This document shows, one piece after another, positions 28,268-34,842 of a stretch of 50,238 nt of DNA; the stretch's first letter is position 1; every line of letters begins with the position of its first letter. The DNA lies in NCBI GenBank assembly GCA_017503005.1, contig JAFVTW010000010.1:1-50238 (forward strand), written 5' to 3'. Made by a program: the position numbers and the translations under genes. The DNA is from Clostridia bacterium (GTDB taxonomy: Bacteria > Bacillota > Clostridia > Christensenellales > UBA1242). Below the pieces are notes generated by a model that worked only from the letters and a program-made list of their open reading frames with translations, was not told the DNA's origin and made no database searches.

Positions 28268-28993
28268 ATGGATATATTTGAAAGTTGGATTGTAAATAAT
28301 ACAATCACAAGATTTGGAATGGTTACTGAAACAGAGCCAGAAAATACTACAGGTGCTTACGAAAATGCTATCAAAATGAATGCACCAATTATGCTATGTG
28401 TACAAAGTTTAGATGATGAAAATTTAATTTGCTTTTCTTACAAAAATATCGCTAGACTAACTGACGGCACTGGTTATGTTCAAACACTAACCCTAAACGA
28501 CATCAAGGATTTAAAAATTAAAAATAGCGAATATAAAATTTTAACTTTTGATAAAGCACTAAGCTGCATCAATGGTCAAGTACCAATTCTAGTAAATATA
28601 ATGAACGATGGTGTAGTTGGAAAAACAGAAGCTAATATATACAAACACCTTAAAGCATATAACGGCGAATATGCCGTATCTTCTGCAAATCCTTATGTAT
28701 TACAATGGTTTAAAGAAAATGCTCCTGATGTATGGAGAGGAATCAAAAGCTGCAAATTTACAGACAAGTACTTTGGCAGTATAAAAGCCAAGAAGTTAAC
28801 TAAGTTAAAATTCAATAAACTTTGTGAACCAGACTTCATCTTATACAATGCATGCGACCTACCAAACAAGTATGTTAGAAAATATGCAACCCTGCCTATT
28901 ATTGCATACGATGTACTAAACGAGCACGATTACCTAAATGTAGTAAAACATTGTGACAATGTAGTAAGCAACGGCTTTACACCAGAAATTTAA
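28268..28993 (+). CDS. catalytically degenerate GDPD-fold protein
   Basis: A 241-residue protein that aligns by eye to bacterial glycerophosphodiester phosphodiesterases. It keeps the scaffold patterns PENTTGAYENAI, DGTGYVQTLTLNDIKDLKI, LTFDKALSCINGQVPILVNI, LKAYNGEYAVSSANPYVLQWFKENAPDVWRG and a closing barrel strand with VVSNGFTPE. The active-site positions are all replaced: the IAHRG motif reads ITRFG, the E-x-D metal pair is lost (LCVQ), the HD motif is SY, and the E-x-K strand is NIM. It is therefore probably a pseudoenzyme, perhaps a binding or regulatory protein. The reading frame is intact and has its own promoter, SD (AAGGAA) and terminator, which argues against simple decay. No signal peptide. 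Confidence 0.8.
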   Translation: MDIFESWIVNNTITRFGMVTETEPENTTGAYENAIKMNAPIMLCVQSLDDENLICFSYKNIARLTDGTGYVQTLTLNDIKDLKIKNSEYKILTFDKALSCINGQVPILVNIMNDGVVGKTEANIYKHLKAYNGEYAVSSANPYVLQWFKENAPDVWRGIKSCKFTDKYFGSIKAKKLTKLKFNKLCEPDFILYNACDLPNKYVRKYATLPIIAYDVLNEHDYLNVVKHCDNVVSNGFTPEI

Positions 28994-28999
28994 TAAACA

Positions 29000-29028
29000 A
29001 AAAGACTGACGATATGTCAGTCTTTTTT
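29000..29028. terminator. bidirectional terminator between the GDPD-like and ABC genes
   Basis: Stem GACTGAC/GTCAGTC with four flanking A and six flanking T; it works in both directions for the convergent genes. Confidence 0.9.
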
Positions 29029-29029
29029 A

Positions 29030-30853
29030 TTAAATATTTTCTGCTAAGAACATATTTTTGAATTTCTCATTGTTTTCGAATAAGTAATCAAAAGTACCAG
29101 AATCAATAATCTTACCCTCATCTAAGAAGAAGATTTTGTCTACATTTTTGATTGTTGATAGTCTATGAGCAACTATAACAACTGTACTTTTACCCTTAAG
29201 ACCATCAATACTTCTCTTAATATTTTCTTGAGCGAAGTTGTCTAAGCTACTAGTACTTTCGTCAAAGATTATTATAGAAGAATTTCTAAGCAATGCTCTA
29301 GCTATAGCCAGTCTTTGTTTTTGACCACCCGACAATTTTACTCCACTTTCGCCAACCTTAGTATTTACACCTTTTTTAAGTGTTGTAATAAAGTCATCGA
29401 AAGATGCATCTTTAATCGCTTTCTCTATCTCTTCGTTGGTAGCATCAGGCTTAGCAAGCAACATATTTTCTTTGATAGTCATATCGAAAATATATGGGAA
29501 TTGGTTTACAAGTGAAATTGAACCTCTAAGGGTTTCCTTAGACAAATCATTAATATTTACACCATCAATCAAAACTTCTCCGCCATCAACCTCAAACATT
29601 TTGCTCATTAGGTTTAGAATAGTAGACTTACCACTACCAGACTTGCCTACAAATGCAACTGTTGTATTCGGTTGAATTTTGAAGTTTAAATCTGTAAAAA
29701 TTTGATTTGTAGAAATAATCTTTCTATGTTGTTTTTTCTTATTTTTAGATTTCTTATTTGTATCGGCTAATTCATCTTCTTCATTTTCTTTTTCGTAATC
29801 ATTATAGCAATATGATACATTTTTAAATTCAATTTTACCTTTGATATTATCAAGTGTAACATTGCCAAACTTTTCACAAACAAAGTCCACACCATTAAAC
29901 AGTGCAAACATTCTATCAGAGCTAATTTTGATTTCTGAAAATTTAGATGCAATATTACCTAACTGCCAAATAAGACCGTACAATTCGTTATTGTTTGAAT
30001 ATACAATCATAAATGCTGCAAATGTAAGTAAACCAGTATCAATTAAGTATACACCTAAAATAAGAATCAATATAGACACTGTTTCAATAATAAAGTTTCT
30101 AGTAGACCAGAAGCTCATATCTTTGACATTTGTTCTATAACTAACATCTTTGTAATCATCATAGTATTTTTTTGAAACTTCACTAAGTTTCTCTTCCAAA
30201 CCTATAGCTTTGATATCTTTTTCACTTCTAACAATCTCTGTAGTAAGTGAATTGATTTTATCACTAGCTTTGCGGGTTTTTCTACGATTAATCTTATAAG
30301 TTTTGACCCTCTTTGCTTCTAAAATCATACATGCAATCAATACGGCTATAAGTACTAATCCTATATAAATATTCAATGAAATAATGTATACTATAACAAC
30401 CATTGCAGATATAATTTCTGTAATCATATCAACAATATCAGCCAAGTTGTTTACTAGTCTTTCTGGGTCATTTACAATTCGTTGAACAAATGTACCAGTT
30501 TCGTAGTCGGCATAAGTTTGTGAATTCAACTTAAATGCCTGCTTAGCCAAATCTAAATTTAAGTCTGCCATAATTTTTGATGAGTATTTGTAATAAAGTA
30601 CATTACCTAAAACCCAACAAATTCGTCTAGACAAACTACAAATAAGTGTAATAATAAATATTTGGATAGCTGCAAAAAATTCTTGACTAGTTTTTGCAAT
30701 AGTAACAGCTTCGATAGCTCTAGCCATTGTCAAAATAATGGCAATACTAAATGTAGCAGCTAGTAAACAAACTAAAATATAAGCAGCAATCGGTAATTTG
30801 TATTTTGCAAGATATTTTGCAATTGAAATATTTTCTGTTTTATTCTTTTTCAT
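29030..30853 (-). CDS. ABC exporter (fused membrane and ATPase domains)
   Basis: A 607-residue half-transporter of the MsbA/LmrA-like exporter group, expected to act as a homodimer in the cytoplasmic membrane. A six-helix membrane domain covers about residues 15-310 and the ATPase about 340-605. Motifs: A-loop Tyr350, Walker A GKSGSGKST (403-411), Q-loop NQFPYIF, signature LSGGQ (507-511), Walker B IIIFDE (528-532) and H-loop H563; all intact. A charged insertion (about 352-380, alternating acidic then lysine-rich) lies between the A-loop and Walker A, which is unusual. The SD GGAGG is inside a hairpin of an upstream leader-peptide attenuator, so I infer inducible drug or antibiotic export. 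The substrate cannot be read from sequence. Confidence 0.93.
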   Translation of the reverse strand: MKKNKTENISIAKYLAKYKLPIAAYILVCLLAATFSIAIILTMARAIEAVTIAKTSQEFFAAIQIFIITLICSLSRRICWVLGNVLYYKYSSKIMADLNLDLAKQAFKLNSQTYADYETGTFVQRIVNDPERLVNNLADIVDMITEIISAMVVIVYIISLNIYIGLVLIAVLIACMILEAKRVKTYKINRRKTRKASDKINSLTTEIVRSEKDIKAIGLEEKLSEVSKKYYDDYKDVSYRTNVKDMSFWSTRNFIIETVSILILILGVYLIDTGLLTFAAFMIVYSNNNELYGLIWQLGNIASKFSEIKISSDRMFALFNGVDFVCEKFGNVTLDNIKGKIEFKNVSYCYNDYEKENEEDELADTNKKSKNKKKQHRKIISTNQIFTDLNFKIQPNTTVAFVGKSGSGKSTILNLMSKMFEVDGGEVLIDGVNINDLSKETLRGSISLVNQFPYIFDMTIKENMLLAKPDATNEEIEKAIKDASFDDFITTLKKGVNTKVGESGVKLSGGQKQRLAIARALLRNSSIIIFDESTSSLDNFAQENIKRSIDGLKGKSTVVIVAHRLSTIKNVDKIFFLDEGKIIDSGTFDYLFENNEKFKNMFLAENI

Positions 30854-30855
30854 AT

Positions 30856-31016
30856 AAAAAAACCTCCGTAAAATTTTTGCATACGAAGGTTTAAAATACT
30901 CATAAAATATTTGTGATTAGATTTAATCACATTAAAAAGAACCATTCGTATGGCATATAGAATTATTAAAAGTTGCTACAAATTTAAAAACATTGTTAAA
31001 TACGCTCATGCGAATG
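30856..31016 (-). promoter_or_regulatory. four-segment attenuator controlling the ABC exporter
   Basis: In transcript order: segment 1 CATTCGCATG (31016-31007, holds the leader ATG), segment 2 CATACGAATG (30952-30943, end of the leader ORF), segment 3 CCTTCGTATG (30889-30880) and segment 4 TACGGAGG (30870-30863, holds the exporter SD), then seven U (30862-30856). Pairings: 1:2 has 9 of 10 pairs; 2:3 has 8 perfect pairs (CATACGAA/TTCGTATG) plus GG/CC after a bulge; 3:4 has 8 pairs with one G-U. The 1:2 plus 3:4 state hides the SD and looks like a terminator. A ribosome stalled in the leader would free segment 2 to pair with 3 and release the SD. An independent 7-bp hairpin (30913-30930) lies between segments 2 and 3. 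Confidence 0.82.
30932..31009 (-). CDS. leader peptide of the ABC exporter (25 aa)
   Basis: ATG at 31009-31007, TAA at 30934-30932, with the perfect SD AGGAGG (31018-31023) eight bases upstream. The peptide begins MSVFNNVFKFVATFNN and ends CHTNGSF; it is rich in Phe, Asn and Val, with hydrophobic residues early in the peptide as in short stalling leaders of macrolide-resistance genes (M-x-x-F...F-V). The ORF overlaps segments 1 and 2 of the attenuator. No function as a free peptide is implied; its role is most likely to position or stall the ribosome. Assignment rests on the SD, the overlap with the RNA segments and the promoter. Confidence 0.8.
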   Translation of the reverse strand: MSVFNNVFKFVATFNNSICHTNGSF

Positions 31017-31062
31017 TCCTCCTTTTTATTATTTTGCTTCGTAAATCTTTTACAACAACTCT

Positions 31063-31091
31063 AAAATACACTTTTAAAATTAAGTTGTCAA
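31063..31091 (-). promoter_or_regulatory. promoter of the leader/ABC exporter transcript
   Basis: Minus-strand consensus -35 TTGACA (31086-31091), 17-bp spacer, TATTTT (31063-31068). Start near 31056, about 33 nt before the leader SD. The 5' end also has TACGAAGC (31043-31036), whose TACGAAG could pair with CTTCGTA of segment 3. Confidence 0.85.
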
Positions 31092-32543: not shown

Positions 32544-33566
32544 TCATTTTATCAAATTTTGTTTTGAAGATTTAAAAATATTAATGTGCTCTATATTGTT
32601 AAATACAATACCGTTATACATTACCGAAACATATTCACCATTGTTTATATAAAACAAATCATCATTGTACTCCAATTTAAAATTAAATCGATAAAATCTT
32701 TCTTTTAAAAATATAATTTTATCATTACGAACTACTACCCCTAAGTAGTATTTCAAAATATAAATATACAACTCAATATATTTCTTATTTTCATACAAAC
32801 ATTTACACACATAACCAAAATTGTAACAACTTTCAATTTCAACCAAATTCAATAATTCTAATAAATTTTTTGTTAGATTTTTTCGCCTTAAAATACTAGT
32901 AAGTTGTTCATTAAAAAACTTGTTTAAAACTTTATTTTTTGTAGTAATTTTGATTGTAAAATCATTACAAAACAAACAATTATTTTTTGATTTGTTTTTG
33001 GTACTATACAAATTCTTATAATTTCTAATAATATAGGCATTTTTACAAGATTGCACAGCACTTTGCATAGTATCAAATTTATGAATAATTTTGATTTTAT
33101 TTTTGGCATCAAAACTTACAATATCTACCACCTTAAAAATAGAGTGTTTTGTATATACTTTACTAATAAGTTTGTAGTTCTTTTTATAAATATTTTTTGT
33201 AGCACTTACCTTGTCTAAAAAAGATATAAATACTACTGTTATTTTACAATCAAAACTAGTAGAATTGTTTACAATTTCTACACTTCTATTTTTGAATTTC
33301 AAATACAAATATTTATCAAATACTTTATACAAATACACTACACCGCCATCAACATAGCAATATCTAAATTCCTTAATTAATTTGTTTTCAATATATACTT
33401 TGAAAGAATGTTTGTACGAAACAGTATTACTACTAATACTTAAACACTTTTTAACAGCTTTTGGTTTACCATCTAATAGCACGATCTTTGAAGATTTGGT
33501 CGGATTACACCTAAACACTAGTATTAAACTCAAAAAATACAACAACCACAAAACAATCAATATCAT
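32544..33566 (-). CDS. hypothetical membrane-anchored protein, 340 aa
   Basis: I do not recognise this protein. It has one N-terminal hydrophobic helix (MILIVLWLLYFLSLILVF) and a long Lys/Asn/Tyr/Phe/Ile-rich remainder with alternating beta-strand character. A helical stretch (about 215-275) is followed by IELYIYILKYYLGVVVRNDKIIF and further strands. The C-terminal part is faintly reminiscent of the end of GH94-type glycan phosphorylase domains, but no catalytic signature is visible, so I do not assign it. Composition is more AT-rich than its neighbours. It lies between rnpB and rarA on the same strand. SD support at the ATG is weak. Confidence 0.65.
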   Translation of the reverse strand: MILIVLWLLYFLSLILVFRCNPTKSSKIVLLDGKPKAVKKCLSISSNTVSYKHSFKVYIENKLIKEFRYCYVDGGVVYLYKVFDKYLYLKFKNRSVEIVNNSTSFDCKITVVFISFLDKVSATKNIYKKNYKLISKVYTKHSIFKVVDIVSFDAKNKIKIIHKFDTMQSAVQSCKNAYIIRNYKNLYSTKNKSKNNCLFCNDFTIKITTKNKVLNKFFNEQLTSILRRKNLTKNLLELLNLVEIESCYNFGYVCKCLYENKKYIELYIYILKYYLGVVVRNDKIIFLKERFYRFNFKLEYNDDLFYINNGEYVSVMYNGIVFNNIEHINIFKSSKQNLIK

Positions 33567-33606: not shown

Positions 33607-33638
33607 AAATAAACACATAACTAAGTATGTGTTTATTT
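33607..33638 (-). terminator. terminator of rnpB
   Basis: 13-bp stem AAATAAACACATA/TATGTGTTTATTT (33607-33619 with 33626-33638) followed on the minus strand by six or more T. Confidence 0.9.
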
Positions 33639-33974
33639 AGTTAGATATTAAATAAGCCGAGTTCTGTATTAAGTGGTCATCTATCTAGACACGGTATTGC
33701 TAGCGTGTTCAAGCGATGTATCGAAAAACGAAGCGAGCAACTTTTAAATGTTTTTCTTATCTTGCACCGAGTAGTGTTTACAGCAAATGTTAGTTACCTA
33801 ACAAGTTTGTGAGCTCTTACCTCACACTTTCACCCTTACTCTAGTAAACTAAAGCGGTTTATTTCTGTTGCACTTTACCTTAGGTCACCCTAGCCAGACG
33901 TTATCTGGTACCCTTGCTCTGTGGTGCTCGGACTTTCCTCATGATATTCATGCGACCACATAAATATCTAACTG
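33639..33974 (-). ncRNA. rnpB: RNase P RNA
   Basis: The catalytic RNA that matures tRNA 5' ends. On the minus strand the conserved 5' core GAGGAAAGTCCGAGC is present, and the 3' core ACAGAACTCGGCTTA lies near 33650. The universally conserved ACAGAA element, the GGGTGAAAG-type internal segment and a 10-bp P1 helix (AGTTAGATATT near the 5' end with AATATCTAACT at the 3' end) are all visible. Length is about 335 nt. A consensus promoter is just upstream and a strong terminator follows. Ends are set by P1 and are approximate by a few bases. Confidence 0.95.
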
Positions 33975-34146: not shown

Positions 34147-34842
34147 CTAAAAATATTCTTCTTTAGATATATTTTCTTTCATGGTTTCTATGGCTTTTTT
34201 CTCTAGTCTAGATATATAACTTCTACTTATTTTAAGTTTAGAAGCAACCTCTCGCTGAGTAAGTGCTGGACAACCATTAAGCCCATACCGCAAGCAAATA
34301 ATCATATACTCTCTCTTAGTAAGTACTTGTTTAAGTTTTGCATTTAGTTTCTCCGACACCACATTATTATTTACCTTTTCTTCAATATCATCACTTTCAA
34401 ACATTATATCAATAAGAGCTAATTCGTTATCTTCACTATCAGTACCTAAAGCATCTTCTATAGATATAGTGTTTTTGTGTTTTTTATTTACTCGCAGCAA
34501 CATCAAAATTTCATTCTCAATACATTTAGCTGCATATGTAGAAAATTGAGTACCATGATTTAATTGATAAGTTTTGATAGCCTTAATTAGACCCAAACTA
34601 CCTACTGATATCAAATCGTCAGCTTCTTCGGCACCATTATATTTTTTGACTATATGAGCAACCAACCTCAAATTATGCTCTATCAAAATCTTATAAGCTT
34701 CCTGGTCACCATTTTTATATTTAGTTAGATATTCATTTTCTTGTTTGGTTGTCAGTGGTTTTGCAAATGAAGTATTGTTTTTTACATAAGACGAAAACAA
34801 CATTATCTTTTGAATAAAGTTTATGTAGCTTTCAAAAATCAT
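34147..34842 (-). CDS. sigK: sporulation sigma factor sigma-K (pro-form)
   Basis: A 231-residue sigma-70 factor for late mother-cell gene expression. It matches sigma-K: SSYVKNNTSFAKPL, then LIEHNLRLVAHIVKKYNGAEEADDLISVGSLGLIKAI (region 2), TQFSTYAAKCIENEIL, and TQREVASKLKISRSYISRLEKKA (region 4.2 helix-turn-helix). The first 18 residues form a hydrophobic pro-sequence ahead of YVKNN, matching the SpoIVFB cleavage site in Bacillus pro-sigma-K. The gene is intact, with no intervening element. GAGGTTAAA precedes the ATG, and the same GAGGTTAAAA occurs about 25 bp upstream as a direct repeat. A GTCAAAT...CATATATAT arrangement upstream is a weak sigma-E-like candidate. Confidence 0.92.
   Translation of the reverse strand: MIFESYINFIQKIMLFSSYVKNNTSFAKPLTTKQENEYLTKYKNGDQEAYKILIEHNLRLVAHIVKKYNGAEEADDLISVGSLGLIKAIKTYQLNHGTQFSTYAAKCIENEILMLLRVNKKHKNTISIEDALGTDSEDNELALIDIMFESDDIEEKVNNNVVSEKLNAKLKQVLTKREYMIICLRYGLNGCPALTQREVASKLKISRSYISRLEKKAIETMKENISKEEYF

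Follow-up and report, generated by a model that had tools for sequence, protein, structure and literature searches.

A ribosome-mediated transcription attenuator with three mutually exclusive helices very probably controls the gene of an ABC exporter in a 50,238-nt stretch of DNA from a Clostridia bacterium. This stretch, here called the window, is one contig of a 24-contig, 1.23-Mb genome, and both the attenuator and the exporter are located on its minus strand. The arrangement reported in a preliminary description of this DNA is confirmed as a real observation in the window, and the interpretation given there is supported in part. A promoter, a Shine-Dalgarno sequence (SD), a short leader ORF and four segments that can pair as 1:2, 2:3 and 3:4 precede the exporter (Table 1). 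These parts, their pairings, their conservation, the link to the exporter and the dependence of the pairing on the position of the ribosome were computed; the leader is presumed to be translated.

The leader region and the exporter in the window

Table 1. Features of the attenuator and the exporter in the window.
Feature	Position	Strand	Remarks
Promoter	31063-31091	-	-35 TTGACA 31091-31086, 17-nt spacer, -10 TATTTT 31068-31063
Leader SD	31018-31024	-	AAGGAGG; paired within helix 1:2
Leader ORF	30932-31009	-	25 codons + stop; MSVFNNVFKFVATFNNSICHTNGSF
Segment 1	31000-31024	-	leader SD, start codon and first three codons; putative anti-antiterminator with segment 2
Segment 2	30934-30958	-	last codons of the leader, core CATACGAATGGTTCTTTTT; partner is segment 1, or segment 3 via 30955-30940
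Small hairpin	30912-30931	-	TGTGATTAAATCTAATCACA; separates segments 2 and 3
Segment 3	30878-30892	-	AAACCTTCGTATGCA; antiterminator 3' half; its initial 11 nt serve as the terminator 5' arm
Segment 4	30860-30870	-	TACGGAGGTTT; 3' arm of the terminator, includes the exporter SD GGAGG
U7 run	30856-30862	-	completes the intrinsic terminator; first three U also paired in the stem
ABC exporter	29030-30853	-	607 aa, ATG at 30853
Terminator-like hairpin	28999-29027	-	immediately 3' of the exporter

The leader SD, the 25-codon ORF and the union of exporter SD and seven U in segment 4 were found as the preliminary description had given them. The 3' arm of the 3:4 hairpin (AAACCTTCGTA with TACGGAGGTTT, -12.2 kcal/mol) contains GGAGG, and the seven U start at the end of this arm. 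The other two pairings described are likewise present in the window. The 1:2 duplex has an energy of -22.0 kcal/mol (shuffled mean -12.1) and the 2:3 duplex one of -15.2 kcal/mol (shuffled mean -6.3), with P<=0.005 in both cases from 200 dinucleotide shuffles of one strand only. Folding of the 213-nt leader gave -44 kcal/mol (z=-3.25), and 1 of 200 shuffles folds equally well. A finder for the full architecture passed one of the 41 window ORFs of at least 120 aa, namely the exporter; it asked for an SD-leader, a terminator <=-8.5, 1:2 <=-13 and 2:3 <=-10, thresholds that were chosen after the helix energies were known.

The promoter matches 10 of 12 consensus positions. The earlier term 'consensus promoter' is appropriate for the -35 hexamer TTGACA and not for the -10 hexamer, which is weak with 4 of 6 matches. 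By itself, a promoter match occurs in the region about as often as chance predicts (41 found, 41.7 expected). Upstream of the leader, TTGACA with a fitting -10 is present in 39 of the 43 loci (see below) with sufficient upstream DNA, where shuffles expect 0.16. Normal and permissive scans of the element against Rfam 15 identified no credible family at the gathering score. The best matches below the threshold were SpF39_sRNA (29.9, gathering 60 bits) and Phe_leader (19.5, gathering 55).

Judged by its sequence, the exporter is a half-size protein of the ABCB/MsbA/Sav1866 type, with one transmembrane and one nucleotide-binding domain in a single chain. It matches the Pfam families PF00664 (ABC_membrane, 82.9 bits, cut-off 28) and PF00005 (ABC_tran, 108.5 bits, cut-off 25), as well as Sav1866 (7e-68) and MsbA (3e-59). 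None of the 25 NCBIfam matches listed for the exporter reaches its cut-off, so that no substrate is assigned; the exporter is presumably of the drug type.

Because a terminator-like hairpin and a convergent ORF come next, the exporter is probably a one-gene transcript unit. The convergent ORF (28268-28993, plus strand, 241 aa) has a weak match of the phospholipase D type (24.6 bits, cut-off 450). A 340-aa ORF without NCBIfam matches at E<=0.001 (32544-33566, minus strand) lies between a rarA-like gene and the class A RNase P RNA (33637-33971, minus strand, 263 bits). A SigK-like sigma factor (34147-34842, minus strand; PRK05803, above cut-off) is encoded in this genome of only 1.23 Mb.

Distribution and conservation of the element

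In a sample of 197 genomes from the family, 67 encode homologs of the exporter at E<=1e-100, in 75 places altogether. Upstream regions were taken from 69 of these places; excluded were the partial matches G009 and G070:C16 and the weakest ones, G002, G086:C15, G023 and G104. L090, whose start was not found, was also excluded and L094 and L095 were added, which gave 70 readable upstream regions (68 places plus the two additions). A further contig scan provided 12 loci, among which only L093, L094 and L095 are close. By script, 40 of the 70 regions contain an SD-leader candidate. Six of the 40 were dropped: L022 and L023, where the script gave no terminator, and L019, L028, L031 and L079, by judgement, as no terminator fitted. 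All three helices are present in the remaining 34 loci, with the terminator placed by hand in four of them (L014, L020, L026, L095).

A covariance model of helices 1:2 and 3:4 was then used; it has no ORF requirement, but its training loci all have a leader ORF. A filtered search of 309 family genomes located the element in 54, of which 28 are loci of the 34 set (with G252 and G279 counted as L094 and L095) and 26 are new. Six loci of the set were missed (L017, L024, L038, L064, L066, L071), and the total is 60 of 309 genomes as a lower bound. Conservation of the leader, a check suggested earlier, was found throughout: an SD-leader of 15-36 codons is present in all 60 loci, and the 26 new loci have one of 18-27 codons each. 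The same exporter lineage is next in 58 of the 60. Among the new loci, 24 are followed by the same exporter (51-68% identity) and none by a gene of another kind. The two remaining elements are one at a contig end (L139) and one decayed copy (L141, G054:C3:29558-29678). The latter retains the leader and segment 2, but the first long ORF after them encodes just a C-terminal part of the exporter (79% identity in 150 aa).

An order-wide covariance search of 396 genomes, a sample of a larger group and with the same family included, gave nothing credible outside the family. Matches were obtained in 13 genomes, 12 of them from the same family; the match in G566 (E=5.8e-4) precedes an unrelated 125-aa ORF and was taken as chance. 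A search with the leader DNA in 59 genomes yielded two matches outside the family, G214 (3.9e-4) and G210 (6.5e-4), which were rejected as SD-like stretches before unrelated genes.

In a quickly computed tree of 56 exporters, of which 46 have the element and 10 lack it (L139 and L141 omitted), the distribution of the element needs seven changes, and 7 of 500 shuffles are as low. The element is read as old and lost several times, on a tree where gains and losses are indistinguishable because the root is a midpoint. In L023 (G008:C1), from the genus of the window, the exporter directly follows a rarA-like gene as in the window, with neither leader nor attenuator, which looks like a loss.

The locus-by-locus tests of the helices refer to the 34 loci and not to the 26 covariance additions. 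Helix 1:2 is better than shuffles at P<=0.05 in 30 of the 34, and helix 2:3 in 31. Swapping partners among 16 loci, hand-picked as the most divergent, gave for each of the three helices a native sum that none of 20,000 permutations equaled (P=5e-5 per helix). In individual rows, the native partner alone ranks first among the 16 only five times each for 1:2 and 2:3, and 11 times for 3:4. The best upstream partner of segment 2, searched from 60 nt before the leader AUG, covers at least 2 nt of this AUG in 32 of 34 loci, as the preliminary description had it for the start codon in the window. In 28 of 34 loci, this partner also covers 60% or more of the leader SD (41% with shuffled segment 2; this control exists for the SD figure and not for the AUG).

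Covariation across related loci had been named as a check. Column covariation supports 3:4 well, 2:3 partly and 1:2 not. Neither this check nor that of leader conservation refuted the model, the exception being the absent column covariation of 1:2. In 3:4, double changes are present in 8 of 11 pairs; 0 of 500 shuffles are as high, and every slid control is lower. In 2:3, 77% of the cells are paired (30-48% when slid), 32 cells are double-changed (0 of 500 shuffles as high) and the covariation score is reached by 1 of 500 shuffles. The numbers of double-changed pairs (8, shuffled 8.4) and of pair types (23, shuffled 23.6) are ordinary in this helix, and sliding it by -2 scores more (11 double-changed pairs, 27 pair types). 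In 1:2, column covariation is absent: 64 of 500 shuffles attain the score, and sliding the helix by -1 raises it. The locus-by-locus tests were used for 1:2 because segment 1 aligns poorly; the negative column result stands. The stretch of segment 2 is replaced with the pairing retained in L024, L038 and L066. In L024 the segment is replaced wholesale with its partners kept (GTGAGGTCA with GGCCTCAC), and L149 resembles it by reading.

The core pattern of segment 2 is matched in 39 of the 60 leaders. It is read as an HTNG/HANG-like sequence in 34 of these, as TYEWF (L059) or TYEYP (L056) in two, and as AIRMV or AMRLA in three (L135, L137, L062); L016, which is outside the pattern, reads HIRMVLFK. 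Segment 2 is thus used in different codon frames between species, which indicates conservation of the RNA and not of the peptide. By inspection of the 60 leaders, the rest of the peptide is highly variable and a shared arrest motif was not seen; nor was a codon run common to them. The Phe/Asn/Val-rich stretch in which stalling had been placed lacks conservation. In the middle of the leaders, Asn, Lys, Ile, Leu and Thr are abundant and G is scarce (6.6%, versus 19.5% in six CDS of the window), and the G-poor middle fits an unstructured spacer. The pN/pS of the leader middles is 0.52 (11 pairs; 15.3 synonymous and 34.7 other changes), compared to 0.18 for the exporter in 8 of the 11 pairs. These observations argue for selection on the RNA and on an ORF end close to segment 2, to a greater extent than on any one peptide sequence.

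The proposed switch and its alternatives

In the proposed switch, the ribosome-binding site (RBS) of the leader would be the first part transcribed by RNA polymerase. Without a ribosome, segment 1 with the SD and the AUG would pair with segment 2, 3:4 would form, and transcription would stop at the U run; in a message read through from this state, the exporter SD would be concealed. In normal translation, a ribosome at the leader stop would sit on segment 2, again giving 3:4. A ribosome held at the start or in the first six or so codons would cover segment 1 and leave segment 2 free. Segment 2 could then pair with segment 3 before segment 4 exists, by which the terminator would be lost, the exporter SD opened and the exporter made. 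The likely signal would be any condition by which ribosomes are slowed near the beginning of the leader, especially antibiotics that inhibit translation, and less likely one peptide-specific drug or one amino acid; the inducer is probably a translation inhibitor.

A folding model was computed with a ribosome-sized block at each codon and with pairing evaluated before segment 4 exists. The empty RNA of the window has 23.6 pairs of 1:2 and 0.4 pairs of 2:3. With the P site at codons 1-6, helix 2:3 has 13.3-13.6 pairs, as anticipated by the earlier proposal that early stalling favors 2:3, and at codon 7 it has 6.9. At codons 8-12, 2:3 has at most 0.3 pairs, because 1:2 re-forms behind the ribosome in the model. 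Counter to the simple logic, 2:3 is possible again at codons 14 and 15, with 11.7 and 9.5 pairs, before it drops to 0.2-1.1 pairs at codons 16-26, the last of which is the stop. The mean relative 2:3 of the 34 loci is at least 0.8 at 18-26 codons before the stop, approximately 0.2 at seven codons or fewer from the stop; on ribosome-free RNA it is 0.54. Within the model, this position dependence points to a ribosome held early as the on state. More than 70% of the maximal 2:3 is predicted already without a ribosome in 12 of the 34 loci, and in L014, L032, L037, L054, L055 and L095 the last position with more than 70% is at most two codons from the stop. As modeled, the three-state logic appears clean in the window and not in every relative. 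Equilibrium folding was rejected as a predictor of the on state: with segment 4 included, the terminator wins at all positions in the window (at least 10.1 pairs). Since the terminator is preferred at equilibrium, the decision would have to be kinetic, by trapping.

A tentative suggestion is that the leader may act as a one-shot sensor, independent of the peptide, for ribosomes that are arrested at initiation or shortly thereafter. As the SD and the start codon of the leader are inside the putative anti-antiterminator, a ribosome could be read only if it had loaded by the time segment 2 is transcribed, and one pioneer ribosome would be polled per transcript. If this is the case, the switch would answer blocks of initiation and early elongation generally, regardless of the drug, and would be a family-wide gauge of proper translation start that is wired to an exporter.

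A dual block by 3:4, of transcription and of translation, had been proposed. The terminator step is common to the relatives. Hiding of the SD holds for the window and for 29 of the 34 loci, in which no more than 7 nt separate the end of the terminator from the exporter start and the SD is inside or beside the 3' arm. It fails in L014, L017, L021, L054 and L060, where this distance is 30-105 nt and the terminator cannot conceal the SD. By reading, hairpin and U run are apparently apart from the last SD in L127-L129, L132, L136, L140, L145, L146 and L148. The distant terminators in some loci suggest termination as the common step, with hiding of the SD as an additional layer that vmlR also has. 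For these reasons the earlier label 'erm-type' is not the best analogy. Attenuators of the ermC type act on translation only, have a methyltransferase as their target and encode a specific macrolide arrest peptide; here, the terminator is a common part, the target is an exporter and no shared arrest motif was seen. Pure ermC-type translational attenuation, with 3:4 only concealing the exporter SD and with peptide-specific drug arrest, is considered unlikely. It agrees with the placement of the SD, which the 3' arm contains or adjoins in the window and 29 of 34 loci, and with the hairpin of L020, which has no U run. Against this, almost every locus has a U run at or after the end of the hairpin (a frequency that is not independent, because the finder demanded a U run except in the four hand-set loci), five loci have a distant terminator, and no common arrest motif was seen in the 60 leaders.

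A peptide-specific arrest, in which the C-terminal HTNGSF-like sequence would sense a particular drug or exporter substrate, is very unlikely. The HTNG/HANG-like C-terminus of 34 leaders and some constraint on the leader middles (pN/pS 0.52) could be explained in this way, but the same RNA is read in other frames in L016, L056, L059, L062, L135 and L137, and pairing is retained in L024, L038 and L066 where the stretch is replaced. In the window model, moreover, a ribosome at the C-terminus covers segment 2 and would favor termination over induction. Attenuation of the trp or his kind, with leader codons sensing the shortage of an amino acid, is highly improbable, even though the three-helix logic is identical and Asn makes up 18.2% of the mid-leader residues (5.8% in six proteins of the window). 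The excess of Asn, Lys and Thr accompanies the depletion of G, as expected for an unstructured linker, a shared codon run was not seen in the 60 leaders, and the target is an exporter and not a biosynthesis gene. The least probable explanation is a metabolite-binding riboswitch or a protein-binding leader with an incidental ORF. Coverage of Rfam is incomplete, and the translation of the leader is a prediction; on the other side, Rfam gave no match at the gathering score and weak ones far below it, inspection of the alignment gave no conserved unpaired block, and SD and ORF are present at 26 of 26 loci found by the RNA model. Ribosome-mediated transcription attenuation is the reading retained here.

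Known systems and natural variants

The kind of control is already known from bmrB-bmrCD, vmlR, yxjB and msrD. In bmrB-bmrCD of Bacillus subtilis, reported in 2014, a multidrug ABC exporter is under ribosome-mediated transcription attenuation, is induced by lincomycin, erythromycin and chloramphenicol, and needs translation of the leader (PMC4191407). Control of an exporter in place of a methyltransferase, which the preliminary description had emphasized, is therefore not new. As here, a leader ORF precedes the exporter, together with a terminator, an antiterminator and a predicted anti-antiterminator (PMC4191407). In contrast, bmrB has 53 codons and the terminator inside its coding region, whereas the leader described here has about 25 codons and the terminator after the leader stop; bmrCD is a heterodimeric exporter of two genes under AbrB, in contrast to one exporter gene here; and the window terminator, unlike that of bmrB, holds the exporter SD, in a comparison by published description (PMC4191407).

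Induction of the vmlR gene of B. subtilis results from ribosome stalling on a very short uORF, in which several amino-acid changes are tolerated (PMC9226507). The antiterminator, the terminator and SD hiding as a second layer are shared with vmlR, and probably so is the anti-antiterminator. The uORF of vmlR is a tripeptide with a single-stranded SD ahead of SL-1, whereas SD and AUG are within 1:2 here; VmlR is an ABC-F ribosome-protection factor and not an exporter, and its SD hairpin is separate from the terminator (PMC9226507). In msrD/MsrDL (PMC10314930) and yxjB (PMC6851288), a stalled ribosome on the leader also blocks intrinsic termination, and yxjB, like the window, has an SD-hiding hairpin (PMC6851288). 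Stalling is drug-specific in both, for cladinose macrolides and for tylosin, respectively, and the targets, an ABC-F factor (msrD) and an rRNA methyltransferase (yxjB), differ from the exporter controlled here (PMC10314930, PMC6851288). No overlapping antiterminator was identified for yxjB (PMC6851288), whereas the window has 2:3. The likeness to ermC consists of pairing segments and a target SD in the last hairpin that is freed by ribosome stalling (PMC4191407). Premature terminators predicted upstream of ABC transporter genes were named 'ABC-leaders' in 2010 (PMC2965389). One of them was predicted before a multidrug export operon in two lactobacilli; the predictions concern other bacteria, and in the excerpted text the export case has no leader-ORF mechanism (PMC2965389).

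No paper on this element was recognized among the matches listed, which is weak evidence of absence because most subscription literature was outside the scope. What is distinctive here is that the leader's own RBS appears to be the anti-antiterminator strand. The element has no match in Rfam 15 and is available in dozens of natural variants. As the same antiterminator RNA is read in different frames, constraints on RNA and on peptide can be separated without mutagenesis. Peptide-independent drug sensing also becomes accessible to a reporter test. The findings suggest that, in these uncultured bacteria of the Clostridia type, translation stress governs a drug-type exporter.

Several loci differ in the region downstream of the leader. 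Tandem hairpins of the CCTTCG type were observed in L014 (G141), L127 (G221), L128 (G248), L129 (G265), L132 (G258), L139 (G241) and L136 (G236). The first hairpin stretch joins 2:3/3:4, and the second sits toward the exporter SD. The tandem is less clear in L129 and L132, and the contig of L139 ends inside the second hairpin. A long insert separates segments 2 and 3 in L150 (G250:C13:38956-39322) and L151 (G255:C6), and the covariance model matches two times in G250.
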